From Mesonia sp. K7 (lineage in GTDB: Bacteria > Bacteroidota > Bacteroidia > Flavobacteriales > Flavobacteriaceae): 64,000 nt of DNA. The notes beneath the pieces were generated by a model that did not search any database, was not told the origin of the DNA, and was given only the letters and a program-made list of their open reading frames with translations. The translations under genes and the position numbers were made by a program. The stretch is from assembly GCF_003233725.1 (NCBI RefSeq), contig NZ_QKQV01000004.1, forward strand, positions 1-64,000, read 5' to 3'. Shown in pieces: positions 3,332-19,831 of this stretch. Positions within the stretch are counted from its first letter, which is position 1. Every line of letters begins with the position of its first letter.

Positions 3332-6300
3332 TTATTCTTTAATAATTCTTACTACTTTTTTAACTCCATCAACATAAATAGCTGCAAAATAAGTTCCTGA
3401 AGCAAATCTTTCTAACGATATAGCAACTTCATTTGCACCTGCTTGCTGTTTGAGAACTTGTTGACCTGATAAGCTGTAAATTTCAACCTTTTCAATCGGC
3501 AATGCGTTTTCAAAATTAACCCTATTATTGGTTGGGTTAGGGTAATAACTCAATCCGTTAAATACCGTGTTTTCCGTATTAATAGTAGGGAAAGGCTCTG
3601 TTAATCTAGGAGCACTTTCTACGGGGATATTTGGATCACAAAGTGAATAAAGCTCCGCAACCAAGTTAGTCTCCTTTGGTAAACCATTTACCACTTTGAA
3701 GTCTTTACTACTATCGTTTATTGCAGTAGTATATACAGGGTTGGCTTCGTTACCTGGCTCATAAACTCTCAAGATATAGCTTTGGATACTAGAAAGCACT
3801 GCTGGCACATCCCATTCTATCACTGCACTTACCGTAGTACCGTCTAAAGAAAGCTCTTGATTACCTATGCTTAAATTTGTTGGCGAAGGACAATCTAACT
3901 CCACTGTGATTTGCAAATAATCACTTTCACAATTATTTAGGGTTTGTGTAATGTAATAGGTTTCACCATGTTGTAATAAATGGTTAATTGTCACTAAATC
4001 GTACTCACCATTTGTATCAATCACATAATACTTAATATCTGTGCCTGTAACATCTAAATCTCCAGTGGTATCTCCTGTCACATATTGCTGTGTTGTACTA
4101 GTTGTTGTAGGCGGTGTCGTAAAATATACGTTAATATCTACGGTACTACTTACATCAGGACAACTTGTGAAATCTAAGTTTGCAGTATATTGATAGTTTC
4201 CAGCGGCAGATTGTGTAAAATACACTTCATTTACTGGCGAACCATCATAAGGTACAGTTGCTTGATCATCAAAGTATAAGTCTGTATTTGGCGACCAACT
4301 TACAAAACCGTCTGCAAAACTACGAGAAATAACAATGTTGTCGACAGCAACCCACCAACCCCATCCACCAGAATAGTGGATTGCAATTCGAACATCAGAA
4401 GAGCCTACATATTGATCTAAATCTACTGTAGTATTGGTAAATGGTCCATCTACATCAATCACTGGTGTTAAGGCTTGTATGTTTTGCCATGGCCCTTGAT
4501 CTATAGAAACTTGCACCTGTGCTTCGGTATCTTGATTGGTAAAATCTGCAGGGTAAGCTCTAAAGAAATAATCTAGACTCACTTCTACACCAGCCACTCC
4601 AACTAAATTGATTGTTGGTGAGATAAGCCTTGTATCTAAGGTACATGCTGGCCCTAGTTGATCTGAAACAGCAAGGTAATACTGAGAATCATCTGGACTA
4701 GACAAGGATGCTAATGGGTTATTTGCTGGCGAATGTGGTGAACTTACAATATTCCAATCTGCACTAGCAACATTTCCGTAAGGGGCTGTTGAAGTATTTA
4801 CTGAAGTCCATCCTTGAGCTCCAGTTTCAAAATCATAAATTTCTGAGCCGGCTGTTAACTTAATTATTTCATCTGCACAGATATTTTCACTTACAGGGAT
4901 TACACCTAGGTTACCAACACCGTTAGCAGTAATATCTATTGTAGAAGTTGTACTACATGTTGTAATCGGGTTATAACCTGTAACTTCAAAAGTGGTATTG
5001 GCTATTACCGTAGGTTGTATGTTTGCGCCAGAATCTGTATGCGCCCCATTGGCATCAGTCCAAGTCCAAGTATATTGATAATCTGTATCTGTACTCGTTG
5101 CTGTTAAGTCCGCTTGACCTCCTACACAAACAATCATATTGGTTGCACTCGTTGTGATTGGTAATATTTCATGAACAGTCGCTACCACTTCTTGTCTTGG
5201 TGTCTCACATAAAACTTGTGGCGCTACAATTGTCCAGTCATAGAAATAATAATAATTCGTAGAGTTAGACCCTGAGGTAGTTGCACCACCAACTACAGCA
5301 CCAGAAGCCCCTAAAGGATAAGGAAAATCAGCATCTCCGGAAGCCGTATATAATAATGCAGGACCAGATACTTTACGTAGGTAATATTCTCCAGAAGTTA
5401 GTAAGTTCCAATCTAAATTAATAACATTTAATGTTGGCGAAGAAGCTGTTCCTCCGTTTAGCGCAACTGTTTTAGACAATGTTGATTGTAAAGCTCCTCC
5501 AGAGGAATTTACCGTTTGTACCAATTCAAGTTCTAAATTTCCACTTCCTGCAGCGTATACTTCTACCGTAGAAATCTTTATAGGTTCGCTTACACTAATC
5601 CTTACGCCGTAATTTAAAGTAGAAGTAGTTCCTGCGACAGGTCCTGGATTAGCTTGATGTATTAAATTTCCTCTTCCTAAGAATACTTCTGCTGCCCAAA
5701 AAGATGTAGTCTGCGTCAAGTTAGGTGTCGCATAGCTATCACCTACGCCTACCACTTCTCCTCCCGAAGCCATATCATACCAATAAACTTGTGTTTGATC
5801 ATCATATACACTAGCGTTTTTTGTCACCGAAAGTGTCATCGTTCCGCTTTCACATACTTCATCCCCAATTGGGTTTGATATCCCGCCTAAATCTGTATTA
5901 CAATCGATATCTTCAAAAGTAATCATTAAAGCTGGACTTTCACATGCACCTACATTTTGGGTCACGTGATACACGTCGCCATCTGTTAAAACAATTGTGC
6001 TTGGGTTTGCAATTGGGTTAGCAGTATCTGGTGCTCCCGCTAAATCTGGATACCATTGTAAAGTTGCTCCGTTTATAGTTGGGTAAGCGCCTGCAGCATT
6101 TGAAGGAGCTGGAGTTGGTAGTGGTGAAGCATTATCGAAGTCTGCCAACGTCTGTGATGCAGCACTCACAAATGCCTGTGTTGTATTACCATCTGGAACC
6201 ACCCATGAAGCACAGTCGAAGCCTTCAATATCTAATGTGTAAGGTGAATTGATAGGATTCCCAGAACCATCTATCGTTGCAATCATGATATATATTTCAT

Positions 6301-7534
6301 CTCCCGTATTTACATAAATACTATTAATCTCTATATCGGCACCGTTTTGAGACTCGGCTCCAAATAAACATATACTCTCAATATCACTACACATTTCATA
6401 AATGAAAACCCCAGTAGTAACACCATTTGCTAAGCCTGTTACATCAACTGTCAAAATATCATCTTGACTACTTGTAAAATGATAGACCACTTCGTAACCA
6501 TCTAGAATATCTGAAGTGGCATTACAACCTCCACCTGGGTCACCTTCATAATCTGCAAAACCAAACCTATCTGTTTGATCTGTATCAGAATATGGTAAAT
6601 CGATACTATTATCTGGTGCACTTGGGGTCTGGTTTACTTCTATTGCTACTTCACAATAAGAACCCAAGGCAATGGTTTGAAACTGTATTGAAGATGACCA
6701 TGCACTCGTATCTGATGGTCCACAAATTGCTCTCACATGAACATAATAAGTCTGCCCATCTGTTAAACCCGTTAAGGTAGTACTCATTTCTCCGTCTGCA
6801 TTTACGGCACCTGTCACTGTAGTAAAGGTACAAAATACTGTAGAAGGAGGTCCAGGAATAGGACAAACTGCTACTTCCCATTCTGTAGCATTAGGATTAT
6901 TGAGATCTAACCATGAAATATCTGCTTCATCAAAACTAATGGTTGACTCATCTACTTGCACGCGTGTAGGGCGAATACAAGAAACTTGCTCTATTGCTGT
7001 AAACTTATCCACATACACATATACATCTGAACCTAAATTGGTCACTTCCATCTTCCAAGCAAAATCTGATCCTGTTGGTAAACTTGCCGCAGGGATTAAG
7101 TCTGTTTGCGTAGAACAATCTAAGGTTGCTGCCGTTAGTGTATTATAGGTCGTCCAAGTAGTACCATTATCTATCGAATATTGTAATGCGATAGATGCAG
7201 CATTGGCAGCAGCAGGGTTACCAGAAACAACATCAACAACTTTATACTCAAAAGAAACCTCAATTGCTAATCCTGTTGTTACTTGAGAAGCATATTGGAT
7301 AGTTGTAATGTTTCCTCCTGAAGAATTTACTCTAACCGACTGATCTCCAGAACAAGGATCGGTATCTGTCACTACAAAAGGAGGTAGACCTGTATTCCAT
7401 CCTGGAAAATCTGCAGGCATAGAAACACCGTTTTCAAAATCCTCATAAACAAGCACTTGCGCTTTTGATGTATTTATTGCTATACAGCAAAATAAAAACA
7501 CAAGACTTAAAAGAAAGTAATTTTTATTCATCAT
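3332..7534 (-). CDS. Giant secreted T9SS type A cargo protein, one scaffold copy
   Basis: A 1400-residue multidomain surface protein. Seen: signal peptide ending in SKAQ (1-25); an N-terminal beta region; fibronectin type III-like domain with YYVHVRAICG (about 181-285); PPC-like domain with LPYSDTDQTD and DGYEVVYHF (about 293-440); Ig_7 domain with VYHVTQN (about 455-535); one Ig scaffold with QVYWYDMASGG and TTSFWAAEV, carrying a variable cassette (about 618-773) before CETPRQEVVATV; a PKD-like domain; a jelly-roll region (about 898-1071); a further Ig_7 (YYITQT) and FN3 (about 1135-1310); and a type A sorting tail (about 1325-1400) with YYPNPTNNRV and SGTYFAAIYV. Known: type A tails are recognised by T9SS and usually removed on export. 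Function is probably adhesion or glycan binding; no catalytic motif is visible. Confidence 0.9.
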   Translation of the reverse strand: MMNKNYFLLSLVFLFCCIAINTSKAQVLVYEDFENGVSMPADFPGWNTGLPPFVVTDTDPCSGDQSVRVNSSGGNITTIQYASQVTTGLAIEVSFEYKVVDVVSGNPAAANAASIALQYSIDNGTTWTTYNTLTAATLDCSTQTDLIPAASLPTGSDFAWKMEVTNLGSDVYVYVDKFTAIEQVSCIRPTRVQVDESTISFDEADISWLDLNNPNATEWEVAVCPIPGPPSTVFCTFTTVTGAVNADGEMSTTLTGLTDGQTYYVHVRAICGPSDTSAWSSSIQFQTIALGSYCEVAIEVNQTPSAPDNSIDLPYSDTDQTDRFGFADYEGDPGGGCNATSDILDGYEVVYHFTSSQDDILTVDVTGLANGVTTGVFIYEMCSDIESICLFGAESQNGADIEINSIYVNTGDEIYIMIATIDGSGNPINSPYTLDIEGFDCASWVVPDGNTTQAFVSAASQTLADFDNASPLPTPAPSNAAGAYPTINGATLQWYPDLAGAPDTANPIANPSTIVLTDGDVYHVTQNVGACESPALMITFEDIDCNTDLGGISNPIGDEVCESGTMTLSVTKNASVYDDQTQVYWYDMASGGEVVGVGDSYATPNLTQTTSFWAAEVFLGRGNLIHQANPGPVAGTTSTLNYGVRISVSEPIKISTVEVYAAGSGNLELELVQTVNSSGGALQSTLSKTVALNGGTASSPTLNVINLDWNLLTSGEYYLRKVSGPALLYTASGDADFPYPLGASGAVVGGATTSGSNSTNYYYFYDWTIVAPQVLCETPRQEVVATVHEILPITTSATNMIVCVGGQADLTATSTDTDYQYTWTWTDANGAHTDSGANIQPTVIANTTFEVTGYNPITTCSTTSTIDITANGVGNLGVIPVSENICADEIIKLTAGSEIYDFETGAQGWTSVNTSTAPYGNVASADWNIVSSPHSPANNPLASLSSPDDSQYYLAVSDQLGPACTLDTRLISPTINLVGVAGVEVSLDYFFRAYPADFTNQDTEAQVQVSIDQGPWQNIQALTPVIDVDGPFTNTTVDLDQYVGSSDVRIAIHYSGGWGWWVAVDNIVISRSFADGFVSWSPNTDLYFDDQATVPYDGSPVNEVYFTQSAAGNYQYTANLDFTSCPDVSSTVDINVYFTTPPTTTSTTQQYVTGDTTGDLDVTGTDIKYYVIDTNGEYDLVTINHLLQHGETYYITQTLNNCESDYLQITVELDCPSPTNLSIGNQELSLDGTTVSAVIEWDVPAVLSSIQSYILRVYEPGNEANPVYTTAINDSSKDFKVVNGLPKETNLVAELYSLCDPNIPVESAPRLTEPFPTINTENTVFNGLSYYPNPTNNRVNFENALPIEKVEIYSLSGQQVLKQQAGANEVAISLERFASGTYFAAIYVDGVKKVVRIIKE
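5214..5680 (-). other. Variable cassette, YYYFYxWTI type, in the 1400-aa protein
   Basis: About 155 residues lie between TTSFWAAEV and LCETPRQEV. They contain KISTVEVY, GEYYLRKVSGP and NYYYFYDWTI, and resemble the cassettes at 8380-8850, 12497-12950 and 16983-17450. Confidence 0.75.
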
Positions 7535-7567
7535 TTATTAAATTTAGTTGTATTAATACTTATTAAA

Positions 7568-7603
7568 AGTACAACAAGAAAAGCATTCTTTTCTTGTTGT
7601 ACT
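7568..7603 (-). terminator. 16-bp perfect hairpin after the 2355-aa cargo gene
   Basis: AGTACAACAAGAAAAG pairs without mismatch with CTTTTCTTGTTGTACT around the loop CATT. It lies 9 bases past the stop codon at 7612 and is followed on the minus strand by TTTTAATAAG. It separates this gene from the 1400-aa gene. Confidence 0.8.
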
Positions 7604-7611
7604 CCCTTTTT

Positions 7612-10600
7612 TTATTCTTTCATAACTTTTACCATCGTTGATCTATCCTCTACAGTAATTTTTACCATATAAGGCCCAGCAGCAAGGTAAGACATATCTA
7701 TTATTGCTTCTGTTGTATTCAACTTCTCACTAACCACCTGCTGACCCAGCAAGTTAAACACCACTATCTCATCGATTGCCTTTCTATTAGCGATCGACAA
7801 ATAGTCTCTAACTGGGTTTGGATAGTAAACCAAACCTTCAAAATTAGGATGATCTAAACCAACAACCCTATGGACTTTGATGGGCAATTTATCACTCTCA
7901 CAGAAACCATTTGGGGTCTGGGTTACGTAATATGTGGTCTGATCGGTAAGGTTTACCTGTGAAGGGTCTGTAACCTCGGTAAAAATCATACCGTCATTGC
8001 TCGTATACCAAGTTAAATTGGTTCCCGTAACGGTTAAATCCAATATGGTCTCTCCCTGTACAAAATCTTGGTTTGTAGGACCTGTTGGCAATGCCGCAAC
8101 ATCTTTAATCTCTACCGTTACCGCCAAGCGTGTCTGGCTCTCACATGCATCTATGGTTTGGGTAACATAATATGTCTCACCATCTTCCAATTCATGATTT
8201 AAACCCAGAGGCGTTGACGCAGTATCTGAAGCATACCACTGTAAGTCTGATCCTGTTGCCGTCAAATCTGCAATCGTAGCTCCTGTACAAAGCTTTTGGA
8301 TACTTGTACCCGTTGGAACTGCTGTAGGTTGGTCATTTACAGTCACAACCACTTCTTCTCTTGTACTCTCACAAAGAATGTCTGCTGATCCTATTGTCCA
8401 GTTATAAAAGTAGTAATAAGAGGTTGTATTAGAGCCCGTTGCTCCAAACTGACCTGTTGTAACCTCACCATAAATACTATTTGCTCCTATCGGATATGGA
8501 TAGGTTGTGGTAGAGGCAAAATCTCTAGTCATATCAATATTTCCATCCTGCATTAAACGATAAGTACCTGGAGTAATATTATAATTAAGAGTGACAACAA
8601 AAGGTGTTGCACCGTCCATATTCGGAACCGTAACTGGTGTCGTTATAAGTACTTGATCTGTTAAATCATCTACTAATTGTAAATTAAATGTACCTGCTTC
8701 GCCATCTGGATAAATCTCTACCGAAGCCAATGTAAATGATTGATAAGCAACAAATTCAAGACCATAATACCCTCCAAAATCACTACTTCCAGGGTCTGGT
8801 GCAAGCCTAGCAGAACCCGGAACAGGCACTGTTCCGTCTGTAAACACTTCTGCTACCCAGTAAGAAGTTGTACTGCTAACATTCACATCAAGGCTGTTTC
8901 CTGTACCTAACACACTGCCTCCTGTTGCCGCATCATACCAAATCACTTCATTACCTACGCCATTTGTTTGTGCATTCAAGGTCACTTCACCTCCTGGAGC
9001 ACAGATTATAATATCATCTGCTTGAGAAACTCCCATTGCATTACAATCAAACTCCACAACAGTTACTGCTACTGCAGCACTTTCACAACCCAAAATAGTT
9101 TGGGTCACATAATAAGTCGTACCATCTACTAAATCTTCAATAGTTGGGTCTGCAATTGGCATGGTTAATGCCGCATCGGCATACCACGTATAAGAGGTAC
9201 TATTAGGATCTGTTTCTACAGTAATATCATCCAACACATCAGGCTGTACAAAATAAGGTGCAGGATCTACCTCTACCAGTGGTGCTGCCGCACAATCAAA
9301 TCCATAAATATCTAAGGTGTAGTTGACCGTTGCAGCCTCTGAAGAAATCACAATGAATATGGTCTCCCCTGCATTGATGTAATAATCGGAAATAGCCATA
9401 GCAGAAGGTGAATCTTCGTTGGTCACCCCTGTTAAACAGTTGGTTCCTACCTCACCGCAACTGGTGTAAATATACATACCCGTATTAGGGTTCGTGATCC
9501 CTGACAATTCTATTTGTAAGATATCATCATTTACAGGATCTGCGGTATATTGATATACGACTTCGTTGCCATCCAAATAAGCTGCTCCCGGACAGTCCGA
9601 TCCCGGATCGCCCTCAAAGTTGTCTCCGTAGATCGCTGTAGAATCACTCGTGTTATAAGGCAAGTCTGTATGAGACACTTGTACATCTCCCGTTTGATTT
9701 ACTGTAGCCACAACTTCTGTACGAGGAGTTGATTCACATAAGACTTCCCCTATCACTACTTTATAATCATGGGTTTCTCCAAATGTACTGCCAGGCGTAC
9801 AAGCATTTGTTGGTGTTCCTGCATATCTATCTACAATACGCATCACAGTTGGCCCTCCAGTAGTCGCGGGGATAGTAATAGAACCTGTATGAGCTAGTGC
9901 CGTACCCGATGAAGTATACAACAACTCATTAGTATCGTTAAAGGCTCCATCACGGTCTAAATCTATCCATATTTTTATTCCTTGACTAAAAGTAGGTCCA
10001 TGCACTGTGCTAAAGTCATAACTCTGACCCACAGAGAGAGTACCCACTAAACTTGGATCATTGGTGAAATCTCCATATCCGCTAGGCGAACAACCACTAC
10101 CAACATGATTGATTCCTGCATCAAGCATTACAAAATCTTCTAGTACATCTCCAGAAGTACAGCCCGTTCCATAAGTCGGGATACAATATCCTGAAGGAAC
10201 TGAACCTCCTACACTTCCAGAGACCAAGTTGATCTCCGACACCCAATAGGATGTAGTGGTGGTTAAGGTTGGTGAGGTAAAAGTATTACCTGTAGCCACT
10301 ACATTTCCATCTACTGGAGCATCGTACCAATATATTCCTGACCCTGTTCCACTGCCTGTCGCCGTCATGGTTACTTCGCCTTGACAACTTACCGTACCCG
10401 TCGTGGTTGCTGTAATCCCCAAAGAACTACAGTCTATTTCTTCGACCAATATTGAAGTTGGCGTACTTTCACAACCGTTAAAAGTTTGCGTGACAAAGTA
10501 AGTAGTATTATCCATTAAAGTTGTCGTATCTGGGATTGGATTAGTAGCTCCTGGCCCCGCATACCAATTTAAAGTGGCTCCATTTTCAGTAGTATCTACC

Positions 10601-13600
10601 TCTAGGTCTGCCAAGGTATCTCCTCCAACAAAATCCTGAGGAGAATCTCCATCGGGTGCTGCCAAAGCCGCACAATCGAATGGTATAATATCTAGTGTAT
10701 ACCCTATGGTTGGAGTTAACCAACTCGATACAACTATATAATAATCCTCTCCTGCAGTCACCTGAAAATCTTCTATCCCAAAATCATCATCGCTCGGTCC
10801 TGCAACCGCTCCCGCTAAACAGTTGTCTAACAAATCACCACAACTGTCATATACAAATACAGCTCCGTAGAAATCCGTTAGATCTGAAAGCTGGATATCA
10901 ACCAACTCTGTATTGGGCGCCGTAAACTTGTACACTACATCGTTACCGTTCAGGTAATTCTCTGTCGTCCCGCAATTGGTTCCTGGCGTTCCTTCGTAAG
11001 GGTCTCCGTAGTTTAAAGTATTGTTATTGGCATCGGTATAGGGCAAAGTCGTTACCTGGATATCACCATTGGTATCCACTGTTGCAATCACCTCTTCTCT
11101 TGGAGATTCGCAGATAATAGTATTTCCACCACATAAATCGTAGTGAATTATTCCATTCCATGTTCTAGGAGAACAGCAATAATCAAATGCAGAACAGTTA
11201 CCATTTCCAGAATTAAAAGTTAAATCAGCATTAGAAAAAGTATTAGCACTAGGCGTATAACGTAAATTTGCTAATATATATATACCATAAGTTTTACCAG
11301 CGTCCAAAAGAACACCGTTTGTCAAGTTAAATTGTAATTGCTGACCTGAAGTAGCATTAACCGAAAGGCTTTCTACAAGAGTCCAGTCAGCCTGAGTAGT
11401 ACCTGTAAATCCTCCTTCCACATAATAAATATCAACAGGAAAAGAAGAACTTGTTGCGTTTGGTAATATTGTGAAACCTTCTATCAACATAGAGTTATTA
11501 ATTACAAGATCAAACATATTACCTGCACCACAACTTGAACCTGTGGCAAATGTTGTTTGCAGTTGATCTGCACAACCAGAGCCTCCTCCTGAACCTCCAT
11601 TATCAACCAACACCTCTGAAGCCCAGTAAGAAGTAGTTGAAGTAATTTGGGGCGTAGTATATGTTGGACCTGACCCTACAAGATTTCCACCAGTTTGAGC
11701 ATCATACCAATAAATCTCATTACCATTACCGGAAGGTGTGGCTGTTAAAGTTGCCGAACCTACACAAGGTACTGTATCTCCCATAGAACTTGTAATATCC
11801 AAAATATTACAAATAATTTCTTCTGCATTTACTGCTACAATATTACTCACACAGCCATTTAATGTTTGTGTTACATAATAAGTAGCGCCATCTACTGCAG
11901 GGTCTGTATTTTGAAGCATCATTGTTCCTGCCGCATCCGAATAAAAAGTTAAATTGGCACCTTCTATATCTAAGTCACCAAGAGTATCTCCAGGGTTAAA
12001 ATATTCTGGATCGTCTACCGTTGGACCTGTAGTGTAATCTGCACAATTGATCATTGCCTCTTCAATTGTCAAGGTATAATCTATACTCATTGGCGTACCG
12101 TTACCTGAAACCACAATAAAATAAGATTCTCCCGCATAGACCGTGAACTCATCTATTGCAAAATCAGAAGACGACCCCGTGTTTACAGCTCCCGCTAAAC
12201 AGGAATTTCCAATTTCCGAACAGTTCTCATAAACAAAAACCGAGGCATCATTACCAGTGATTGCTGAAAGACCTATTTTGACCACCCTGTCGGTATCTGC
12301 CACGTATTCATACACCACATCACTACCATCAAGGTAATCATCTGTAGTATTACAATTGTTACCTGGATCTCCCGCATAATTATTCGCAAAAGCACCTGTC
12401 GAATTTGTATTTACATAAGGTAATGGGTTTGTCGTAACGATATCCGCTGCATTGTTTACTGTTGCTATCACCTCTGTTCTTGGACTAGACGAACAAATCG
12501 CTTGCTCATCACCAATCGTTAGGTTATAGAAAATGTACTGTAAGGTTGATGTTCCCGTTGCCGTTGCACCCCCTGTAACAGACCCGTAAGTCCCTAGAGG
12601 ATCTGGAAAAGAACCTGACTCATACCTAAAAGTAGGCCCAGAAACTTTCACCAGTCGGTATTGACCAGGAGCTATATTAAAATTCAAAGACACTACCACA
12701 GAAATTGGCGCCGCAGAAGTTCCTCCCGCAGGCATCGTAGCCGAAGCTGAAGCCACTGTAGCGTTACCATTATTTATATCTCTTAATTCCACATTTAAGA
12801 TTCCTCCTGCTGCTGATGTACTAAACACTTCAGCATCAATTAAGGTCATCTGTTGCGTGACGTCTAAAATTATACCTCCGTTAGTGGTGGTAGATAAAGT
12901 TCCTGAAGAAGTTGGCTGGCCTTGACCTGTTAAAACAGAACCTGTCGCCGCGACTTCAGACACCCAAAAAGAAGTTGTTGTTGCTATTTCAGGAGTGGTA
13001 AAGGTTGCTCCCTTACCAATAGGAGTGCCTCCTGTAGCGTTTTCATACCACCAAATCCTGGTATCTACAGCCTGTTCCGCTCCGGTTGCTTGAAGCTCGA
13101 CCACGCCTTCCCCACAAACAGACGCTCCTTGCGATGAAACTATTGAGAGTACCGAACACTGTACCTCGTTTACGGTTATGGTCAAAGCTGGACTTTCGCA
13201 AGTCCCGAAAGACTGTGTTACATAATAAGGTGTATTATCAACCATCACCGTATCGTCTTGAATGACCGTAGTCAAAGCCGCATCGCTGTACCATGTAAGA
13301 TCTGAGCCGGTCACATCTAAACTGGCCAATGTCTGCCCAGCTATAAAATCCTGTGTTGCCGATCCCGTTGGCGCAGGATAGTTCGTACAAAGCACGCCAT
13401 CTAAATTAAACGTATAAGGGAAGGTTCCCGTTACGGCAGAACTGGAAACCACTATATAATAGGTTTGACCATTTACAACCGAAAACTGTAAATCATATGT
13501 TCCTGTGTTTTCATTTACCGCTCCAGCATAACAATCTGTACCTATATCGGCACAAGATTCGTAGACAAATATACTTGTTTCGTTTGCCGTGATGTTTGCC

Positions 13601-14679
13601 AACTCAGCCGTCATAATATAATCGGCAGTGGCCGTATATTCATACACCACCTCATTCCCATCTAAATACATATCGGCCGTGCCGCAATCGTTCCCTGGGG
13701 CACCAGTATAATTATTGGCATAGTTTGCCGTATCATCCGTATCTGTATAAGGAAGAGATGTCACCAGTTCATCGCCCGCAGTATTTACGGTCGCTGTCGC
13801 TTGCATTCTAGGTGTAGACTCACATTGAATCGCCACTGAATCGAAATAAATTTTTCCGTAAAATGCTCTAGGATTATTAGCTGTAGGATTCGTGGAAGGC
13901 CCACTATAACCAACATTATCCGTACCGCCCAATTTATTATCTCCCACTAAAAGGCTCACCCCATTGCTTGAAAAATTATTTGGAGCTGCAGGCGTTGTGG
14001 TATTACCCCAATAGTAAAATGTAGACACCCCGCTAGTATTTGCAGTCATCACCAAAGCAAAACGATAAACCGTATTCCCTGGAATAACTATAGAAGTATT
14101 ATTGAAAATATTAGAAAGCCCTATAGAAGCACCACTGGTTGATGTCTGCGCTGGAGTTGCCAAAACCCATCCATTTGAAGCGTTGATTGCAGAAGGAGGA
14201 CCTGTCAAATCTGTCGCGTGATACCATAACTCATGCTCTCTAGTAACATTTGCGGGCATATAGTTATCCAAACCCGTAATAGTAATAGAATTAGAATTTG
14301 TGTTTTCAACAGCAAAAGTAACCGTGCTACCTATAGCACTTAAGTTATTCGAAGCTCCCGCAGTAAAAACTGTTTCTGCATCACCGATTATTGGAGTACC
14401 TGAGTACAAGACTTCTGTCGCCCAATACTGCGTAGTGGATGTTAGCACAGCAGTTTCAAAAACATTTCCTGAACCGACATAATTTCCACCTGTAGCGGCA
14501 TCAAACCAAACAATATCATCTCCTGTTCCGGACGAAGTCGCTTCTAAAACAACCTTACCTGGACCACAAACCGAGCCATCTACCGTATTTGTTATAGCAA
14601 GTGTACTACAATTTTGGGAAAACCCAAAAACCATAGTAAAGCAAGCCAAAATAAAACTTAGCATGTAATTTTTTTTCAT
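7612..14679 (-). CDS. Giant secreted T9SS type A cargo protein, five scaffold copies
   Basis: 2355 residues, the largest gene in the window. Seen: signal peptide ending FGFSQ (1-22); five scaffold copies starting near residues 23, 507, 958, 1414 and 1875. Each begins with Cys, then WYDAxTGG and TTSYWVSEV, a cassette, CESPRTEVxATV, a PPC-like domain (LPYxD, YLDGNEVVY, YIVVSS, YTLDI) and an Ig_7 domain ending YYVTQT..GCES. The fifth copy leads directly into two Ig_7 domains and a type A sorting tail (about 2275-2355, YYPNPVRDYL). Cassettes are of four kinds, including GEVED (about 1485-1647). Paired Cys residues suggest disulfides outside the cell. The last 722 bases of shared sequence are identical to the next gene upstream. 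Predicted surface adhesin or matrix protein; no enzyme motif is visible and the ligand is unknown. Confidence 0.9.
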   Translation of the reverse strand: MKKNYMLSFILACFTMVFGFSQNCSTLAITNTVDGSVCGPGKVVLEATSSGTGDDIVWFDAATGGNYVGSGNVFETAVLTSTTQYWATEVLYSGTPIIGDAETVFTAGASNNLSAIGSTVTFAVENTNSNSITITGLDNYMPANVTREHELWYHATDLTGPPSAINASNGWVLATPAQTSTSGASIGLSNIFNNTSIVIPGNTVYRFALVMTANTSGVSTFYYWGNTTTPAAPNNFSSNGVSLLVGDNKLGGTDNVGYSGPSTNPTANNPRAFYGKIYFDSVAIQCESTPRMQATATVNTAGDELVTSLPYTDTDDTANYANNYTGAPGNDCGTADMYLDGNEVVYEYTATADYIMTAELANITANETSIFVYESCADIGTDCYAGAVNENTGTYDLQFSVVNGQTYYIVVSSSAVTGTFPYTFNLDGVLCTNYPAPTGSATQDFIAGQTLASLDVTGSDLTWYSDAALTTVIQDDTVMVDNTPYYVTQSFGTCESPALTITVNEVQCSVLSIVSSQGASVCGEGVVELQATGAEQAVDTRIWWYENATGGTPIGKGATFTTPEIATTTSFWVSEVAATGSVLTGQGQPTSSGTLSTTTNGGIILDVTQQMTLIDAEVFSTSAAGGILNVELRDINNGNATVASASATMPAGGTSAAPISVVVSLNFNIAPGQYRLVKVSGPTFRYESGSFPDPLGTYGSVTGGATATGTSTLQYIFYNLTIGDEQAICSSSPRTEVIATVNNAADIVTTNPLPYVNTNSTGAFANNYAGDPGNNCNTTDDYLDGSDVVYEYVADTDRVVKIGLSAITGNDASVFVYENCSEIGNSCLAGAVNTGSSSDFAIDEFTVYAGESYFIVVSGNGTPMSIDYTLTIEEAMINCADYTTGPTVDDPEYFNPGDTLGDLDIEGANLTFYSDAAGTMMLQNTDPAVDGATYYVTQTLNGCVSNIVAVNAEEIICNILDITSSMGDTVPCVGSATLTATPSGNGNEIYWYDAQTGGNLVGSGPTYTTPQITSTTSYWASEVLVDNGGSGGGSGCADQLQTTFATGSSCGAGNMFDLVINNSMLIEGFTILPNATSSSFPVDIYYVEGGFTGTTQADWTLVESLSVNATSGQQLQFNLTNGVLLDAGKTYGIYILANLRYTPSANTFSNADLTFNSGNGNCSAFDYCCSPRTWNGIIHYDLCGGNTIICESPREEVIATVDTNGDIQVTTLPYTDANNNTLNYGDPYEGTPGTNCGTTENYLNGNDVVYKFTAPNTELVDIQLSDLTDFYGAVFVYDSCGDLLDNCLAGAVAGPSDDDFGIEDFQVTAGEDYYIVVSSWLTPTIGYTLDIIPFDCAALAAPDGDSPQDFVGGDTLADLEVDTTENGATLNWYAGPGATNPIPDTTTLMDNTTYFVTQTFNGCESTPTSILVEEIDCSSLGITATTTGTVSCQGEVTMTATGSGTGSGIYWYDAPVDGNVVATGNTFTSPTLTTTTSYWVSEINLVSGSVGGSVPSGYCIPTYGTGCTSGDVLEDFVMLDAGINHVGSGCSPSGYGDFTNDPSLVGTLSVGQSYDFSTVHGPTFSQGIKIWIDLDRDGAFNDTNELLYTSSGTALAHTGSITIPATTGGPTVMRIVDRYAGTPTNACTPGSTFGETHDYKVVIGEVLCESTPRTEVVATVNQTGDVQVSHTDLPYNTSDSTAIYGDNFEGDPGSDCPGAAYLDGNEVVYQYTADPVNDDILQIELSGITNPNTGMYIYTSCGEVGTNCLTGVTNEDSPSAMAISDYYINAGETIFIVISSEAATVNYTLDIYGFDCAAAPLVEVDPAPYFVQPDVLDDITVETDPNSTSYTWYADAALTMPIADPTIEDLVDGTTYYVTQTILGCESAAVAVTVVEFDCNAMGVSQADDIIICAPGGEVTLNAQTNGVGNEVIWYDAATGGSVLGTGNSLDVNVSSTTSYWVAEVFTDGTVPVPGSARLAPDPGSSDFGGYYGLEFVAYQSFTLASVEIYPDGEAGTFNLQLVDDLTDQVLITTPVTVPNMDGATPFVVTLNYNITPGTYRLMQDGNIDMTRDFASTTTYPYPIGANSIYGEVTTGQFGATGSNTTSYYYFYNWTIGSADILCESTREEVVVTVNDQPTAVPTGTSIQKLCTGATIADLTATGSDLQWYASDTASTPLGLNHELEDGETYYVTQTIDACESQTRLAVTVEIKDVAALPTGPTNQDFVQGETILDLTVTGTNLTWYTSNDGMIFTEVTDPSQVNLTDQTTYYVTQTPNGFCESDKLPIKVHRVVGLDHPNFEGLVYYPNPVRDYLSIANRKAIDEIVVFNLLGQQVVSEKLNTTEAIIDMSYLAAGPYMVKITVEDRSTMVKVMKE
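7658..8379 (-). repeat. 722-bp perfect direct repeat, copy 1
   Basis: By eye, base for base identical to 14883-15604 with a constant offset of 7225 and no gap. It encodes ILCESTREEVVV through the sorting tail up to 13 residues before the end. Identity starts exactly at the end of the variable cassette. Confidence 0.93.
8380..8850 (-). other. Variable cassette 5 of the 2355-aa protein (YYYFYxWTI type)
   Basis: About 157 residues between TTSYWVAEV and ILCESTREE, containing SDFGGYYGLEF, VEIYPDGEAGTF and SYYYFYNWTI. The equivalent position in the 1664-aa protein holds a GEVED cassette instead. Confidence 0.8.
9738..10225 (-). other. Variable cassette 4 of the 2355-aa protein (GEVED type)
   Basis: Contains YCIPTYGTGCTSGD, KIWIDLDRDGAF and GETHDYKVVIG, the signature of GEVED domains. 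It sits between TTSYWVSEI and LCESTPRTEV. The equivalent position in the 1664-aa protein holds a YYYFYxWTI cassette. Confidence 0.82.
11115..11605 (-). other. Variable cassette 3 of the 2355-aa protein (distinct type)
   Basis: About 163 residues between TTSYWASEV and IICESPREEV, starting with a Gly-rich linker (DNGGSGGGSGC), then DIYYVEGGF, LLDAGKTYGIYI and a CCSPRTWNG segment. It is not similar to the other cassettes except in general beta character. The equivalent position in the 1664-aa protein holds GEVED. Confidence 0.75.
12497..12950 (-). other. Variable cassette 2 of the 2355-aa protein (YYYFYxWTI type, diverged)
   Basis: About 150 residues between TTSFWVSEV and ICSSSPRTEV with DAEVFSTSAAGG, GQYRLVKVSGP and LQYIFYNLTI. 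Closest to the cassette of the 1400-aa protein (shared RKVSGP/VKVSGP segment). Confidence 0.75.
13828..14405 (-). other. Variable cassette 1 of the 2355-aa protein (distinct type)
   Basis: About 190 residues between TTQYWATEV and QCESTPRMQA, with FAVENTNSNSITITGL, HELWYHATDLTG and PRAFYGKIYFDSV. Appears unrelated to the other three cassette kinds. Confidence 0.72.
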
Positions 14680-14713
14680 ATGTTTAAATTTTAAGAACTA
14701 TTAACATTAGCTT

Positions 14714-14721
14714 CAAATATA
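14714..14721 (-). promoter_or_regulatory. -7 box TATATTTG for the 2355-aa cargo gene
   Basis: Exact match to the Bacteroidota -7 consensus TAnnTTTG, 34 bases upstream of the ATG at 14679. The same box precedes the 1664-aa gene. Confidence 0.6.
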
Positions 14722-14780
14722 AAAAAAATATTTTAGATATACTTAGGATATACGAACTAAATCTTTAAAATAATCTTAAC

Positions 14781-14812
14781 AAAAAAAGGAGCAGTAACCA
14801 CCACTCCTTTTT
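14781..14812 (-). terminator. Terminator after the 1664-aa cargo gene
   Basis: AAAAAGGAG..CTCCTTTTTTT hairpin with an internal GGT/ACT extension, followed by a T run on the minus strand, 24 bases past the stop at 14837. Confidence 0.75.
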
Positions 14813-14836
14813 ATCATAAATTCAATGTGTGAAAAA

Positions 14837-17800
14837 TTATTCTTTTATAATTTTCACCATAGTAGACTTCTCTTCTACAGTGATTTTTACCATATAAGGC
14901 CCAGCAGCAAGGTAAGACATATCTATTATTGCTTCTGTTGTATTCAACTTCTCACTAACCACCTGCTGACCCAGCAAGTTAAACACCACTATCTCATCGA
15001 TTGCCTTTCTATTAGCGATCGACAAATAGTCTCTAACTGGGTTTGGATAGTAAACCAAACCTTCAAAATTAGGATGATCTAAACCAACAACCCTATGGAC
15101 TTTGATGGGCAATTTATCACTCTCACAGAAACCATTTGGGGTCTGGGTTACGTAATATGTGGTCTGATCGGTAAGGTTTACCTGTGAAGGGTCTGTAACC
15201 TCGGTAAAAATCATACCGTCATTGCTCGTATACCAAGTTAAATTGGTTCCCGTAACGGTTAAATCCAATATGGTCTCTCCCTGTACAAAATCTTGGTTTG
15301 TAGGACCTGTTGGCAATGCCGCAACATCTTTAATCTCTACCGTTACCGCCAAGCGTGTCTGGCTCTCACATGCATCTATGGTTTGGGTAACATAATATGT
15401 CTCACCATCTTCCAATTCATGATTTAAACCCAGAGGCGTTGACGCAGTATCTGAAGCATACCACTGTAAGTCTGATCCTGTTGCCGTCAAATCTGCAATC
15501 GTAGCTCCTGTACAAAGCTTTTGGATACTTGTACCCGTTGGAACTGCTGTAGGTTGGTCATTTACAGTCACAACCACTTCTTCTCTTGTACTCTCACAAA
15601 GAATAGAACCAATTATTACTTTGTAATCATGTGTTTCGCCAAAAGTACCCCCTGGGTTACAAGCACCTGTTGGTGATCCTGCATATCTCCCCATCACCCT
15701 CATTACTGTAGAACCAGAAGTACCTCCTGGAATAGTAATCGAACCTGTTGTATTAGCCGATCCTGAAGTAGAAGCAAATAAAAGTTCAGTAGCATCATCA
15801 AAAGTACCGTCTTGGTTCAAATCAATCCAAATTTTAAGCCATTGATTAGCAAAATTATGCGTTGCACTAAAATTATAAGTGTTTCCTATAGTCATGTTTC
15901 CAACTAATGAAGGGTCAGTAGTATAGTCTGTATAAGCATTAGCAGAACATCCTGTACCTGAATGACTAATCCCTGCAGTCGACATTACAAAATCATCAAT
16001 ATCATCTCCTACCGTACAACCTGTTGGATAAGAAGGTACACAATAAGTATTTGAAATTGGCCCAGCAGTTACTCCGCTACCCAAATAGACTTCTGAAGCC
16101 CAGAAAGAAGTGGTTTGCGTTACATTTAGTGAAGGGTTCGTTCCTGTTGCAACGACATTACCTCCTGATGCTGCATCATACCAAAAAATATCATAACCTA
16201 TACCCGTACTTTGAGCTGATAATGTCACGTTACCTCCTGGCGCACAGATGACCACATCATTTGTCTGAGAAACCCCCATCGCTGCACAATTAAATTCTAC
16301 AACTGTTACTGCCACTGGAGCACTTTCACAACCTAAAATAGTTTGGGTCACATAATAAGTCATACCATCTACTAAATTTTCAATAGTTGGGTCTGCAACT
16401 GGCATGGTTAATGCTGCATCGGCATACCACGTATAGGTTGTGCTATTAGGATCTGTTCCTACATCTATATCACTTAATGTATCTGGTTGCACAAAATACG
16501 GCGCAGTATCAACATCAACTAATGGTGCTGTCGCACAATCAAACCCATAGATATCTAAGGTATAATTTACTGTATTATTTTCTGAAGAAATCACAATGAA
16601 TATGGTCTCCCCTGCATTGATGTAATAATCGGAAATAGCCATTGCAGAAGGTGAATCTTCATTGGTCACTCCCGTTAAACAATTGGTTCCTACTTCCCCG
16701 CAACTGGTGTAAATATACATTCCCGTGTTAGGGTTCGTAATTCCTGACAATTCTATTTGTAAAATATCGTCATTTACAGGATCTGCCGTGTATTGATAGA
16801 TAACCTCGTTTCCATCTAAATAAGCAGCACCTGGACAGTCAGCACCAGGGTCTCCTTGAAAACTATCTCCGTATATAGCTGTAGAATCACTTGTGTTATA
16901 TGGCAAGTCAGTATAAGCTACTTGTACATCACCTGTTTGATTAACTGTTGCGGTAACTTCTGTGCGCGGTGTAGATTCGCAAATTAACTCCCCTGTAGAT
17001 ATTGTCCAGTTATAGAAGTAGTAATAACTTGTAGAAGTTGAGCCTGTAGCTCCAAAACAACCCGAAGTAACTTGACCCACCGAACCATTTGGGCCTAAGT
17101 CATACGGAAAAGTTATCCCTGAGAAATCTCTCGTCATATCTATGACCCCTTGTTGAATCAGTCTATAATCACCTGCTTGAGGCACAAAGAAATTTAATGG
17201 TACCGTCATTGGCGTATCTCCATTCATATTAGGCACCGTTACCGAAGTACTGGTAATCACGGTATTCGTGGCATGATCCACTAATTCTATATCAAAAGTT
17301 CCTGCCTCTCCGTCTGGGTAAATATCAACTTCAACAATCGTAAAAGACTGGTTTGCCGTAAAAATCAAACCATAATTAGCACCTCCAAAATCAGTACTTC
17401 CCGGTGTAATCGCAGGTTTGGCATTACCTGTTGAAGTCAGACCTTCGGCATTTACCTCTGAAACCCAATAAGACGTAGTGCTTGTTAATACTGGTGTCGT
17501 AAAGGTGTTCCCAAATTCAATAGGATTTCCTCCTGTCGCAACATCATACCAATAAATCTCATTACCTGTCCCACTAGCAGTTGCTGTAAAGGTTACTTGT
17601 CCTTGACAATTAACCGCACCTGTGTCTGTAACCTGATTAATCGCTAGAGCACTACAATCTATTTCTTCGACCAATATTGAAGTTGGTGCACTTTCACAAC
17701 CGTTAAAAGTTTGCGTGACAAAGTAAGTAGTATTATCCATTAAAGTTGTCGTATCCGAAATAGGGCTGGTTGCTCCTGGACCTGCGTACCAATTTAAAGT

Positions 17801-19831
17801 TGCTGGGTTTTCAGTAGTCTCCACTTCAAGATCGCTTAACATATCCCCTGTTACAAAATCTTGAGGAGAATCACCATCTGGCGTAGCCAAACTAGCACAA
17901 TCGAATGGTATAATATCTAAAGTGTATCCTACTGTAGATGATAACCAACTAGACACTACTATATAGTAATCTTCACCAGCGGTGACTTGGAAATCTTCTA
18001 TGCCAAAATCATCATCACTCGGCCCAGCTATTTCTCCTGCAAGACAATTGTTACCAATCTCTCCACAATTATCATATACAAAAACAGAAGCATAGAAATC
18101 GGTTAAATCTGATAGTAAAATGTCAACTAATTCCGTATTAGGTGCTGTAAATTTGTAAACCACATTGTTTCCGTTAAGGTAATTTTCTGTTGTCCCACAA
18201 CTAGATCCTGGAGAACCAGCAAAAGGATCTCCATAATTCGCCGTATCATTATTAGAGTCATTATAAGGAAGTGTTGTCACCTGAACATCTCCATTTACAT
18301 CTACTGTTGCAACCACTTCCTCTCTTGGTGATTCACAAGCTACATCACTTATAATAACCTTATAGTCGTGCGTCTCTCCAAATGTTCCTCCTGGATTACA
18401 AGCATCTGTAGGCAAGTTTGCATACCTACCCATCACTCTCATCACCGTCGCTCCTCCATTTGCTCCAGGTATTGTTATAGAGCCTGTAGTATTAGCGGAT
18501 CCTCCTGGTGAAGCAAATAAAAGCTCACTAGCACTAAAAGTTCCATCTTGATCTAAATCAATCCATATTTTCAACCATTGGTTAGCAAAATTATGCGTTG
18601 CAGAGAAACTATAGGTGCTCCCAATATTCATCACCCCTACTAAGTTTGGGTCATTCGTATAATCTGCATAAGCACCTGTAGAACACCCTGTACCTGTGTG
18701 CGATATTCCTGCACTAGACATGTCAAAATCATCTATATCATCTCCAACTGTACACCCGGTTGGATAAGTTGGAACACAATAAGTTGGCGTAGCACCACCT
18801 GAACCCGATTCCATTTTTATTTCTGATGCCCAATAAGAAGTTGTGGTTGAAATAACAGGAGTTACAAAAGTACTTCCTGTCCCTACAATGTTTCCTCCCA
18901 CTGCAGCATCATACCAATAAATATCATCCCCTGTTCCTGTAGAAGTTGCTGTTAAAGTAGCGGTACCTTGACAAGCTACAGTATCTCCCGAAGAAGATGT
19001 AATATCTAAAGTATAGATAGAGCAATCTATGGTTGTTGAAAAAGCGAAAGGCCCCTCCCAAAAACTCGTTCCATCAGTAGTTCCACAATCTGCTTGAATA
19101 TAAAACTCGTAGTCGGTATCTGTCGTTAAGCTACCAATAGTAGTTGGATTGGTGGTCGCTACATGCGTAATTCCTGTTCCTTGAGCAAAACCTGGTGCAC
19201 CGTATTCTATGTTCCAACTTGCTGGTGTTGGTGTATTGGTGTCTGTCCAAGCAACATCAATAGAGGTATTTGTCGCATTTCCTGTTTGCACGTTTGTTGG
19301 TGAAATACACGTTGGTGGCACCTGATAATGCACTGTAATTATCCATGTATTATTATCTACTTTATTATAGTGGGTACCGCACCCTGCATTTGGAGCTGTG
19401 GAACCCCAAGTCCTCCAAGCCTGCATTTCAAAAATTAGACTGGTTCCTCCTGCGTAATAACCATTTGCAAAGGTAAGAGCTGTTCTACTATATGAGAAAG
19501 TCCCTCCTGTACTTCCAGAACCATTTATCGTTGCTTCTGTAAAACCATTGTTTTGAAAATGTACTCGTGATCGTTGTTCAGACATGTAAGCTACATTAGC
19601 AGCAGTCATATCATAAGCTATATCAACACCTAAAACCTCCCAATTCCCTGTAGTTGCAGGCAAGGTTACTGTTAGTGCTGTCGAAGGACCATTACAAGTT
19701 GAGTCATAAGCATTAAAAGCCGTAGGTATATCTCCAGCGCTATAGGTTGCGGAGATGGTTTGCACTTGTGCATTCCCATAAAGTCCACAAGCTAAAAAAC
19801 CCAAAAATAAGAATAAGTATTTTTTTGCCAT
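14837..19831 (-). CDS. Giant secreted T9SS type A cargo protein, three scaffold copies
   Basis: 1664 residues. Seen: signal peptide ending GNAQ (1-22); a unique N-terminal beta domain (about 22-180, with FNAYDSTC and NTWIITVHY); a fibronectin type III-like domain (about 180-268, ASWNIEYG and DYEFYIQADCG); three scaffold copies starting near residues 267, 725 and 1180, with GEVED, YYYFYxWTI and GEVED cassettes; PPC-like domains; two Ig_7 domains; and a type A sorting tail (about 1590-1664). Its three scaffold copies match copies 3-5 of the 2355-aa protein, up to about 90% by eye in the PPC part of the middle copy, while the cassette differs each time. It has its own TATATTTG promoter. Predicted exported surface protein; the ligand is unknown. 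Confidence 0.9.
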   Translation of the reverse strand: MAKKYLFLFLGFLACGLYGNAQVQTISATYSAGDIPTAFNAYDSTCNGPSTALTVTLPATTGNWEVLGVDIAYDMTAANVAYMSEQRSRVHFQNNGFTEATINGSGSTGGTFSYSRTALTFANGYYAGGTSLIFEMQAWRTWGSTAPNAGCGTHYNKVDNNTWIITVHYQVPPTCISPTNVQTGNATNTSIDVAWTDTNTPTPASWNIEYGAPGFAQGTGITHVATTNPTTIGSLTTDTDYEFYIQADCGTTDGTSFWEGPFAFSTTIDCSIYTLDITSSSGDTVACQGTATLTATSTGTGDDIYWYDAAVGGNIVGTGSTFVTPVISTTTSYWASEIKMESGSGGATPTYCVPTYPTGCTVGDDIDDFDMSSAGISHTGTGCSTGAYADYTNDPNLVGVMNIGSTYSFSATHNFANQWLKIWIDLDQDGTFSASELLFASPGGSANTTGSITIPGANGGATVMRVMGRYANLPTDACNPGGTFGETHDYKVIISDVACESPREEVVATVDVNGDVQVTTLPYNDSNNDTANYGDPFAGSPGSSCGTTENYLNGNNVVYKFTAPNTELVDILLSDLTDFYASVFVYDNCGEIGNNCLAGEIAGPSDDDFGIEDFQVTAGEDYYIVVSSWLSSTVGYTLDIIPFDCASLATPDGDSPQDFVTGDMLSDLEVETTENPATLNWYAGPGATSPISDTTTLMDNTTYFVTQTFNGCESAPTSILVEEIDCSALAINQVTDTGAVNCQGQVTFTATASGTGNEIYWYDVATGGNPIEFGNTFTTPVLTSTTSYWVSEVNAEGLTSTGNAKPAITPGSTDFGGANYGLIFTANQSFTIVEVDIYPDGEAGTFDIELVDHATNTVITSTSVTVPNMNGDTPMTVPLNFFVPQAGDYRLIQQGVIDMTRDFSGITFPYDLGPNGSVGQVTSGCFGATGSTSTSYYYFYNWTISTGELICESTPRTEVTATVNQTGDVQVAYTDLPYNTSDSTAIYGDSFQGDPGADCPGAAYLDGNEVIYQYTADPVNDDILQIELSGITNPNTGMYIYTSCGEVGTNCLTGVTNEDSPSAMAISDYYINAGETIFIVISSENNTVNYTLDIYGFDCATAPLVDVDTAPYFVQPDTLSDIDVGTDPNSTTYTWYADAALTMPVADPTIENLVDGMTYYVTQTILGCESAPVAVTVVEFNCAAMGVSQTNDVVICAPGGNVTLSAQSTGIGYDIFWYDAASGGNVVATGTNPSLNVTQTTSFWASEVYLGSGVTAGPISNTYCVPSYPTGCTVGDDIDDFVMSTAGISHSGTGCSANAYTDYTTDPSLVGNMTIGNTYNFSATHNFANQWLKIWIDLNQDGTFDDATELLFASTSGSANTTGSITIPGGTSGSTVMRVMGRYAGSPTGACNPGGTFGETHDYKVIIGSILCESTREEVVVTVNDQPTAVPTGTSIQKLCTGATIADLTATGSDLQWYASDTASTPLGLNHELEDGETYYVTQTIDACESQTRLAVTVEIKDVAALPTGPTNQDFVQGETILDLTVTGTNLTWYTSNDGMIFTEVTDPSQVNLTDQTTYYVTQTPNGFCESDKLPIKVHRVVGLDHPNFEGLVYYPNPVRDYLSIANRKAIDEIVVFNLLGQQVVSEKLNTTEAIIDMSYLAAGPYMVKITVEEKSTMVKIIKE
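14883..15604 (-). repeat. 722-bp perfect direct repeat, copy 2
   Basis: Identical to 7658-8379, in the same orientation. Outside it the two genes diverge at once: the last 13 codons differ by several substitutions, and the cassette on the other side is of another family. Confidence 0.93.
15605..16085 (-). other. Variable cassette 3 of the 1664-aa protein (GEVED type)
   Basis: YCVPSYPTGCTVGDD, WLKIWIDLNQDGTF and GETHDYKVIIG lie between TTSFWASEV and ILCESTREE. It is closely similar to cassette 1 of the same gene (18340-18815), so it may have been copied within the gene. Confidence 0.82.
16983..17450 (-). other. Variable cassette 2 of the 1664-aa protein (YYYFYxWTI type)
   Basis: TDFGGANYGLIF, VDIYPDGEAGTF and SYYYFYNWTI lie between TTSYWVSEV and LICESTPRTEV. 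It is the close relative of cassette 5 of the 2355-aa gene, which sits at a different scaffold position. Confidence 0.8.
18340..18815 (-). other. Variable cassette 1 of the 1664-aa protein (GEVED type)
   Basis: YCVPTYPTGCTVGDD, WLKIWIDLDQDGTF and GETHDYKVIIS lie between TTSYWASEI and ACESPREEV. Confidence 0.82.

Follow-up and report, generated by a model that had tools for sequence, protein, structure and literature searches.

Ig-like domains split by whole inserted domains are known from the RTX adhesins FrhA, MpIBP and AhLap, for which two accounts (PMC10865825, PMC12077191) report inserts of the PA14/CBM or sugar-binding, peptide-binding and RTX-roll kinds; in FrhA, as reported there, the insert exits past a first stretch of 12 residues and 106 residues follow it. 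Here we describe a comparable arrangement in three proteins (P0001, P0002 and P0003) encoded in a 64,000-nucleotide stretch of DNA from Mesonia sp. K7 (contig NZ_QKQV01000004.1, positions 1 to 64,000; hereafter the window), in which Ig_7 domains (PF19081) act as scaffolds, each interrupted by a cassette of one of several kinds. As in the RTX adhesins, the Ig-like domain is discontinuous in sequence (the two ends of the insert lie together in the RTX case), several kinds of insert occur, and the carriers are giant modular surface proteins. Unlike the RTX adhesins, which use type I secretion and carry RTX repeats, the Mesonia proteins are of the type IX secretion class (the Pfam matches of P0001–P0003, taken up to E 1, include no RTX family); the split family is Ig_7, and the insert follows approximately position 65 of the 84 profile positions, before the last strand, rather than the first strand as in FrhA. 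The split-domain idea is already known from RTX adhesins; the family, the secretion route and the insertion point are different here. A preliminary description of this DNA knew of no earlier account of the arrangement, and we found none under GEVED, Ig_7/PF19081, Ig-like/type IX domain insertion or F–G loop insertion in literature whose coverage left out most subscription journals. Our reading, to which we give a probability of roughly 0.78, is that these are split Ig_7 domains in type IX-secreted surface fibres, which would project probably ligand-binding modules from the loop between strands F and G.

The three open reading frames (Table 1) each end in a C-terminal type IX sorting domain (Por_Secre_tail/TIGR04183); their N-termini look hydrophobic by eye. 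Pfam content comprised Ig_7, fn3 and Por_Secre_tail in P0001, Ig_7 (10 stretches), GEVED and Por_Secre_tail in P0002, and Ig_7 (7 stretches), GEVED (2) and Por_Secre_tail in P0003. The nine scaffold copies (one, five and three; S1–S9) of the preliminary description were confirmed, and all nine follow one plan: 67–73 residues lead to a SYWVSEV-type strand, a cassette of 149–192 residues follows (150–190 in the preliminary description), and 15–16 residues of the CESPRxEVxATV type come last. The ending had been given as a fixed TTSYWVSEV; a strand F motif does lie at that place, but it is variable (SYWVSEV, SYWASEI, SFWVSEV, QYWATEV and others). Clustering returned the earlier tally of cassette kinds, with four of the YYYFY type, three GEVED and two singletons (A and B). 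The nearest named relatives of P0003 are in Mesonia genomes, and those in Aequorivita echinoideorum and Salegentibacter sp. R32 come next. A pairwise alignment of P0001 with P0003 was uninformative.

The Ig_7 profile matched 48 places genome-wide. The native matches of the nine scaffolds stopped at position 65, 66, 69 or 74 of 84; the remaining 39 ended at 71–84, 28 of them at position 80 or beyond. Matches confined to positions up to 65–74 speak for ordinary tandem domains, in which the last strand of the N-terminal Ig domain would simply be missing or weak and CESPRxEV would form the beginning of a PPC-like domain behind it. However, once the cassette was removed the match reached position 82 in nine of nine scaffolds, with scores rising from 39.5–54.7 bits to 50.9–65.3 bits (each gaining 8.4–14.8), and every scaffold exceeded the curated Ig_7 cut-off of 27.3 bits both natively and when joined. 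As a control, the first half of S4 followed by its own cassette residues stopped at position 65 and scored 53.3 bits, 6.8 less than the 60.1 bits of the joined form. The claim that the CESPR strand belongs directly after SYWVSEV was thereby upheld, and the same restoration of the profile end in 78 of 78 homologues (described below) argues against tandem domains too. By eye, moreover, CESPRxEV also occurs without a PPC-like domain behind it (S1, S6 and S9, and the sorting tails of loci L027–L034), it directly follows strand F in two naturally empty relatives, and plain Ig_7 domains carry the same strand.

Relatives were found with scaffold profiles at four taxonomic levels, namely the genus (16 genomes), the family (100), the order and the phylum (395 each). 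The census consisted of the window and loci L001–L145 (83 regions and 62 further loci), picked for an early-ending or high-scoring scaffold match or for comparison, with identical copies dropped before counting. It contained 259 matches to the first half of Ig_7, namely 164 plain, 78 nested, 13 unassigned to either class and 4 cut by a locus end. Gap length between strands F and G was two-peaked, at 0–8 residues in the plain copies (in line with the few residues given in the preliminary description, and under a lenient threshold for 'plain', a motif score of −1 or more) and at 142–228 in the nested ones, the nine window copies having 149–192. In the C4 protein only a few residues separate the strand before from the strand after. 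The nested range leaves aside the third slot of P3 in L013, where the scripted gap of 237 took the strand of the next domain (the same contig in L148 gives 161) and which carries this wrong last strand in the joining-gain and profile-comparison tests. A scan over the full range of gaps covered the 195 of the 259 matches that had enough sequence before the next scaffold, and in 165 of these a site exceeded the threshold: 80 at 0–9 residues, none at 10–69, 3 at 78–89 (all in chains classed as plain), 78 at 140–229 and 4 at 240–259. By eye, the unassigned cases in L020 and L023 seem to hold YYYFY inserts with a last strand lacking the cysteine. The scaffold was found at E 1e-6 or better in seven of the 16 genomes of the window's genus, so that the locus is patchy within the genus. 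Genome G021 holds, on contig 1 at about 3750218–3759010, a frame of 4569 residues in which Ig_7-like repeats occur by the dozen; many of these repeats score equally and are therefore probably near-identical.

Because the Ig_7 profile might itself contain interrupted cases, we made an independent profile from 131 uninterrupted domains, with the window and loci L001–L013, L094 and L098 excluded. With this profile, joining raised the score in all 78 nested cases, by 5.5–18.3 bits (median 11.3). Sixteen random residues from inside cassettes gave a median gain of −0.4 bits, and nine of 390 such trials exceeded 3 bits; a stricter control, for which the site most like a last strand was taken from shuffled sequence, gave a median of 1.1, a 95th percentile of 6.6 and a maximum of 9.8 bits (n = 390). 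Seventy-five of the 78 nested cases lie above that 95th percentile and 58 above that maximum. A cysteine near strand B and another at the start of strand G are both present in 77 of the 78 nested copies and in 127 of the 164 plain ones, and we would guess that a disulphide closes the frame where the cassette exits. Judged by these profile matches, the frame is a single Ig_7 domain interrupted at one place. The gains in the nine copies and in 78 of 78 homologues, set against the shuffled controls, rule out a chance origin of the split pattern.

Two units were modelled with AlphaFold2, from alignments free of rows in which an uninterrupted Ig_7 was laid on the scaffold and with targets ending in a plain Ig_7 domain. 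The model of the S8 (YYYFY) unit and its following domains had a predicted local distance difference test (pLDDT) score of 91.9 and a predicted template modelling (pTM) score of 0.75, and placed strand F at residues 61–71 and strand G at 223–227 and 232–236, with the strands of the cassette lying between 74 and 220. In the S7 (GEVED) unit (pLDDT 83.1) strand F lay at 62–71 and strand G at 228–231 and 235–242. The structure prediction that had been proposed as a check thus predicts confident F and G strands on either side of a folded insert, and together with the joined profiles it supports the proposal that a whole domain occupies the loop between the last two strands. The modelled strand G does adjoin the following domain in sequence, and the junction is of low confidence in the GEVED model, both of which would suit tandem domains; taken with the profile ends, the empty relatives and the plain copies, we nevertheless regard tandem domains as very improbable. 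For both models the top Foldseek match was an Ig-like fragment from the grappling-hook protein of Aureispira; the template modelling (TM) scores are low because each model contains several domains. A PHR domain (3no8) at rank 34 (E 1.7e-3, TM by target 0.51, 169 columns) probably corresponds to the YYYFY cassette. A search of Protein Data Bank (PDB) sequences with the YYYFY unit gave a sole match, to one antibody chain (E 0.06).

The F–G loop is the site of the complementarity-determining region 3 (CDR3) in the variable domains of antibodies and T-cell receptors, and the strand order of the profile would place the insert in that same loop. Fitting this placement, the best match of the scaffold profile among PDB sequences, a weak one at E 0.002, was to strands B and C of T-cell receptor V-beta, and 58 of the 59 distinct PDB sequences listed to E 0.1 were T-cell receptor chains by name. 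The comparison with a variable loop on an antibody-like frame, drawn in the preliminary description, would hold as to place. The inserts, unlike antibody and T-cell receptor loops, are whole domains, and we found no sign of hypervariability or of somatic or phase-variable diversification; in P1 orthologues the cassette diverges about as much as the scaffold.

The 78 nested inserts cluster into seven kinds, YYYFY (51), GEVED (13), R (8; ending in SNRPxIxF-like strands), LTD-like (3), LamG (1), A (1) and B (1), and the proposed homologue search thus found sequence-unrelated domains filling the gap between SYWVSEV and CESPR. Profile homology between kinds was absent in 21 of 21 pairs, the best hhalign probability being 6.4%, and this rules out, at the level of sequence and leaving fold aside, that all cassettes are one diverged family. 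The GEVED cassettes S5, S7 and S9 match PF20009 at 61.7–67.2 bits (cut-off 24.4), and the LamG insert matches Laminin_G_3 at E 2.6e-18; of the other inserts scanned (kinds A and B, two YYYFY, three R and two LTD-like), none matches a Pfam family above its cut-off. GEVED, which occurs in 145 of 246 genomes of the order and has two further copies elsewhere in the window's genome, stands here inside Ig_7, unlike the 29 copies listed from the best-scoring loci outside the window; by eye, those lie behind FN3-like repeats, at the N-terminus or behind another domain, and none of the 29 is preceded by the strand F motif. Kind B has one distant homologue outside its own genome among 247 genomes (30% identity, E 7.5e-12), and the scaffold profile finds no first half in the 1140 residues covered of that homologue's protein (L095). 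Three genomes of the same family (L050, L051 and L053) hold a Lamin-tail-like domain in the Ig_7 F–G gap (Lamin-tail domain (LTD) match at E 0.07 in L050, none in L051). In genome G513, from another family of the class, one protein carries three split Ig_7 domains with the R family (L126), and a second mixed-cassette locus (L129) combines R and YYYFY inserts in neighbouring frames and even inside one frame.

P0002 and P0003 are collinear paralogues whose DNA matches in three main blocks, at residues 1190–1482/499–792 (75.8% identity), 1643–1945/946–1248 (81.5%) and 2101–2356/1410–1665 (98.7%). Each block begins in or just before the last strand of a scaffold. Blocks one and two stop at strand F of the scaffold that follows, whereas block three extends to the gene ends, so that at 3 of 3 slots the matching DNA breaks off at the edges of the cassette. 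At all three slots so paired the cassettes of P0002 and P0003 differ in kind (B against GEVED, GEVED against YYYFY, YYYFY against GEVED), and their DNA identity of 61–64% lies within a shuffled baseline of 60–67% made for one of the three pairs. By comparison, DNA identity is 71–72% in the first halves of the scaffolds and 73, 85 and 100% in the 100 codons past the last strand. At window positions 7612–8382 and 14837–15607, the last 256 codons of the two genes are 98.7% identical in DNA and the adjacent upstream cassettes are unrelated; this block is probably a recent gene conversion that stopped at the cassette edge. A recent swap within the window was rejected as the sole explanation, since an uncultured Mesonia carries the P3 third-slot GEVED and the P2 fifth-slot YYYFY at those same slots, which makes homogenised flanks around old, different cassettes the likelier account of that pair.

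Species were compared with one species per prefix; L153 was left out, as were L146 and L148, which nearly duplicate L150. Across species, P3 holds GEVED, GEVED and YYYFY at its third slot, and the fourth slot of P2 holds GEVED, GEVED, YYYFY, YYYFY and GEVED. The fifth slot of P2 holds YYYFY in three species and is empty in Mesonia hippocampi (L009, genome G103, last scaffold at 6456–6716) and Salegentibacter sp. R32 (L011, genome G110, 4865–5125), where a gap of 8 residues remains and strand G is kept. Past strand F, these empty slots retain residues (EVFL and EIFT) similar to those with which some YYYFY cassettes begin, a hint that an insert was lost and that the empty state is not ancestral. 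The available excerpts of the RTX accounts (PMC10865825, PMC12077191) describe neither corresponding slots with different kinds nor empty slots. Across 19 copies, similarity among YYYFY cassettes correlates weakly with similarity among their scaffolds (r 0.28, p 0.0008); this weak tracking and the differences between slots indicate that the cassette evolves largely as a separate unit. We infer that slots change by replacement and loss, in genes that are otherwise inherited vertically and whose flanks undergo gene conversion.

The same data bear on whether this might be a programmed diversification locus, in which recombination between the conserved F- and G-strand coding sequences shuffles cassettes in the manner of an exchangeable antigen-binding loop. 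It is in keeping with that idea that kinds differ at corresponding slots of the paralogues while the stretches between and after the slots are 76–99% identical, that slots differ between species, and that the third-slot GEVED of P0003 is closest to a GEVED in another slot of the same gene (78%). On the other hand, the residual correlation between cassette and scaffold speaks against such shuffling, and slow domain shuffling with flank gene conversion explains the pattern. Diversification of the diversity-generating retroelement (DGR) type was rejected, as the organism's own genome has no reverse transcriptase (RVT_1) match. Nor did a further copy of the S8 cassette turn up outside the three genes: searching the genome with it (E up to 1) found only its own slot, S6 and S1, in a search that is not exhaustive because it missed the divergent S3 as well. 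A store of silent cassettes was rejected within this scope, the kinds covered being YYYFY (by S8) and GEVED, the latter with the two further copies in the genome given above. We think programmed diversification improbable. Somewhat less doubtful, and put forward as a tentative possibility, is a broader proposal in which the F–G loop of Ig_7 would be a general docking socket in Bacteroidota and the cassettes of the Mesonia locus would be exchanged by recombination between the conserved coding sequences of strands F and G.

In the split-domain arrangement that we favour, the chain would fold the strands up to F, exit the frame at the F–G turn, build a complete second domain of about 150–190 residues, and then return and add strand G. 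The frame would be a generic socket, the same gap in Bacteroidota taking at least seven sequence-unrelated domains. The protein would stand as a rod on the cell surface with its inserts pointing sideways, and by analogy with RTX adhesins these may bind ligands, for instance glycans found on the surfaces of algae or animals. Surface fibres with lateral binding modules are suggested by the Ig-like split domains of RTX adhesins, which project ligand-binding domains off the fibre axis; the context here includes the type IX sorting tails, MAM and FN3 companion domains in the three P2 orthologues scanned, and one LamG cassette. Instead of being a binding module, the cassette could have a structural role, as a spacer or stabiliser by which the fibre becomes longer or stiffer; its fairly uniform length (142–228 residues) agrees with this, as does P1, whose orthologues diverge about equally in cassette (45–57%) and scaffold (44–63%; three best partners per copy). 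Yet a spacer has no need of seven unrelated kinds, lateral insertion adds little length, and LamG domains are lectin-like and linked with binding. In addition, GEVED is tied to CshA-type adhesins in one account (PMC10952558), and the domains inserted likewise in RTX adhesins bind ligands according to the accounts cited (PMC10865825, PMC12077191). We judge a pure spacer to be unlikely.

Several points weigh against our interpretation. Shuffled controls gained up to 9.8 bits, with 36 of 390 at 5.5 or more, and the motif used to choose the last-strand site was itself derived from strands of this type. Owing to the way loci were selected, the share of 78 in 259 should not be read as a frequency, and 17 first-half matches stayed unassigned or cut. 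The S7 model has a pTM of 0.50 and a confidence of 53–69 in the stretch past strand G, and what points to a pairing of F with G is profile homology and the placing of the strands rather than model coordinates. Kinds that are unrelated in sequence may share a jelly-roll fold, the LTD assignment is below cut-off (E 0.07), and kinds A, B and LamG have one copy each. Finally, three of six slots hold the same kind across species (the first and second of P3, three species each, and that of P1, six species).

A fourth protein of the cluster (window 476–3265) adjoins the three proteins with type A tails; it has a CHU_C tail, for which the type B model scored below its cut-off, and one plain YYVTQT..VES domain. 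Coordinates of the split scaffolds are given in Table 1.

Table 1. Genes and parts of split scaffolds in window coordinates
Feature	Position	Strand	Basis
P0001, 1400 aa, type IX sorting tail, one split Ig_7 (S1)	3332..7534	-	Open reading frame; Ig_7, fn3, Por_Secre_tail
P0002, 2355 aa, type IX sorting tail, five split Ig_7 (S2–S6)	7612..14679	-	Open reading frame; Ig_7, GEVED, Por_Secre_tail
P0003, 1664 aa, type IX sorting tail, three split Ig_7 (S7–S9)	14837..19831	-	Open reading frame; Ig_7, GEVED, Por_Secre_tail
S1 scaffold, N-terminal part to strand F	5684..5902	-	Ig_7 9–65/84
S1 cassette, YYYFY type	5219..5683	-	Clustering
S1 last strand (G)	5174..5218	-	Joined Ig_7 match
S2 scaffold, N-terminal part	14410..14610	-	Ig_7 8–65/84
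S2 cassette, singleton kind A	13834..14409	-	Clustering; no Pfam match up to E 1
S2 last strand (G)	13786..13833	-	Joined Ig_7 match
S3 scaffold, N-terminal part	12952..13158	-	Ig_7 7–69/84
S3 cassette, YYYFY type (divergent)	12505..12951	-	Clustering
S3 last strand (G)	12457..12504	-	Joined Ig_7 match
S4 scaffold, N-terminal part	11611..11811	-	Ig_7 13–65/84
S4 cassette, singleton kind B	11122..11610	-	Clustering
S4 last strand (G)	11077..11121	-	Joined Ig_7 match
S5 scaffold, N-terminal part	10231..10431	-	Ig_7 7–66/84
S5 cassette, GEVED (PF20009)	9748..10230	-	63.1 bits
S5 last strand (G)	9700..9747	-	Joined Ig_7 match
S6 scaffold, N-terminal part	8845..9045	-	Ig_7 11–65/84
S6 cassette, YYYFY type	8383..8844	-	Clustering; S8-cassette match
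S6 last strand (G)	8338..8382	-	Joined Ig_7 match
S7 scaffold, N-terminal part	18818..19024	-	Ig_7 8–66/84
S7 cassette, GEVED	18347..18817	-	61.7 bits; AlphaFold2 model
S7 last strand (G)	18302..18346	-	Joined Ig_7 match; AlphaFold2 model
S8 scaffold, N-terminal part	17453..17656	-	Ig_7 6–74/84
S8 cassette, YYYFY type	16991..17452	-	Clustering; AlphaFold2 model
S8 last strand (G)	16943..16990	-	Joined Ig_7 match; AlphaFold2 model
S9 scaffold, N-terminal part	16088..16288	-	Ig_7 8–65/84
S9 cassette, GEVED	15608..16087	-	67.2 bits
S9 last strand (G)	15563..15607	-	Joined Ig_7 match

The pattern provides a simple sequence rule, in which an Ig_7 match that stops near position 65 and is followed 140–230 residues on by C-x-S-x-R points to candidate binding modules in giant type IX-secreted proteins, and the inserts flagged in this way for the most part lack a named family. 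The principle of split domains, known from RTX adhesins, would be extended to another phylum, another secretion system and another site of the Ig fold. Natural pairs that have the same slot with a different insert or none would be useful for testing how binding specificity changes, and the scaffold may offer a natural frame for domain-scale protein engineering. Were the more tentative proposal of a general socket with recombining cassettes also true, binding specificity could be swapped in one step with the fibre undisturbed, a domain-scale bacterial analogue of CDR3 change on a fixed frame.

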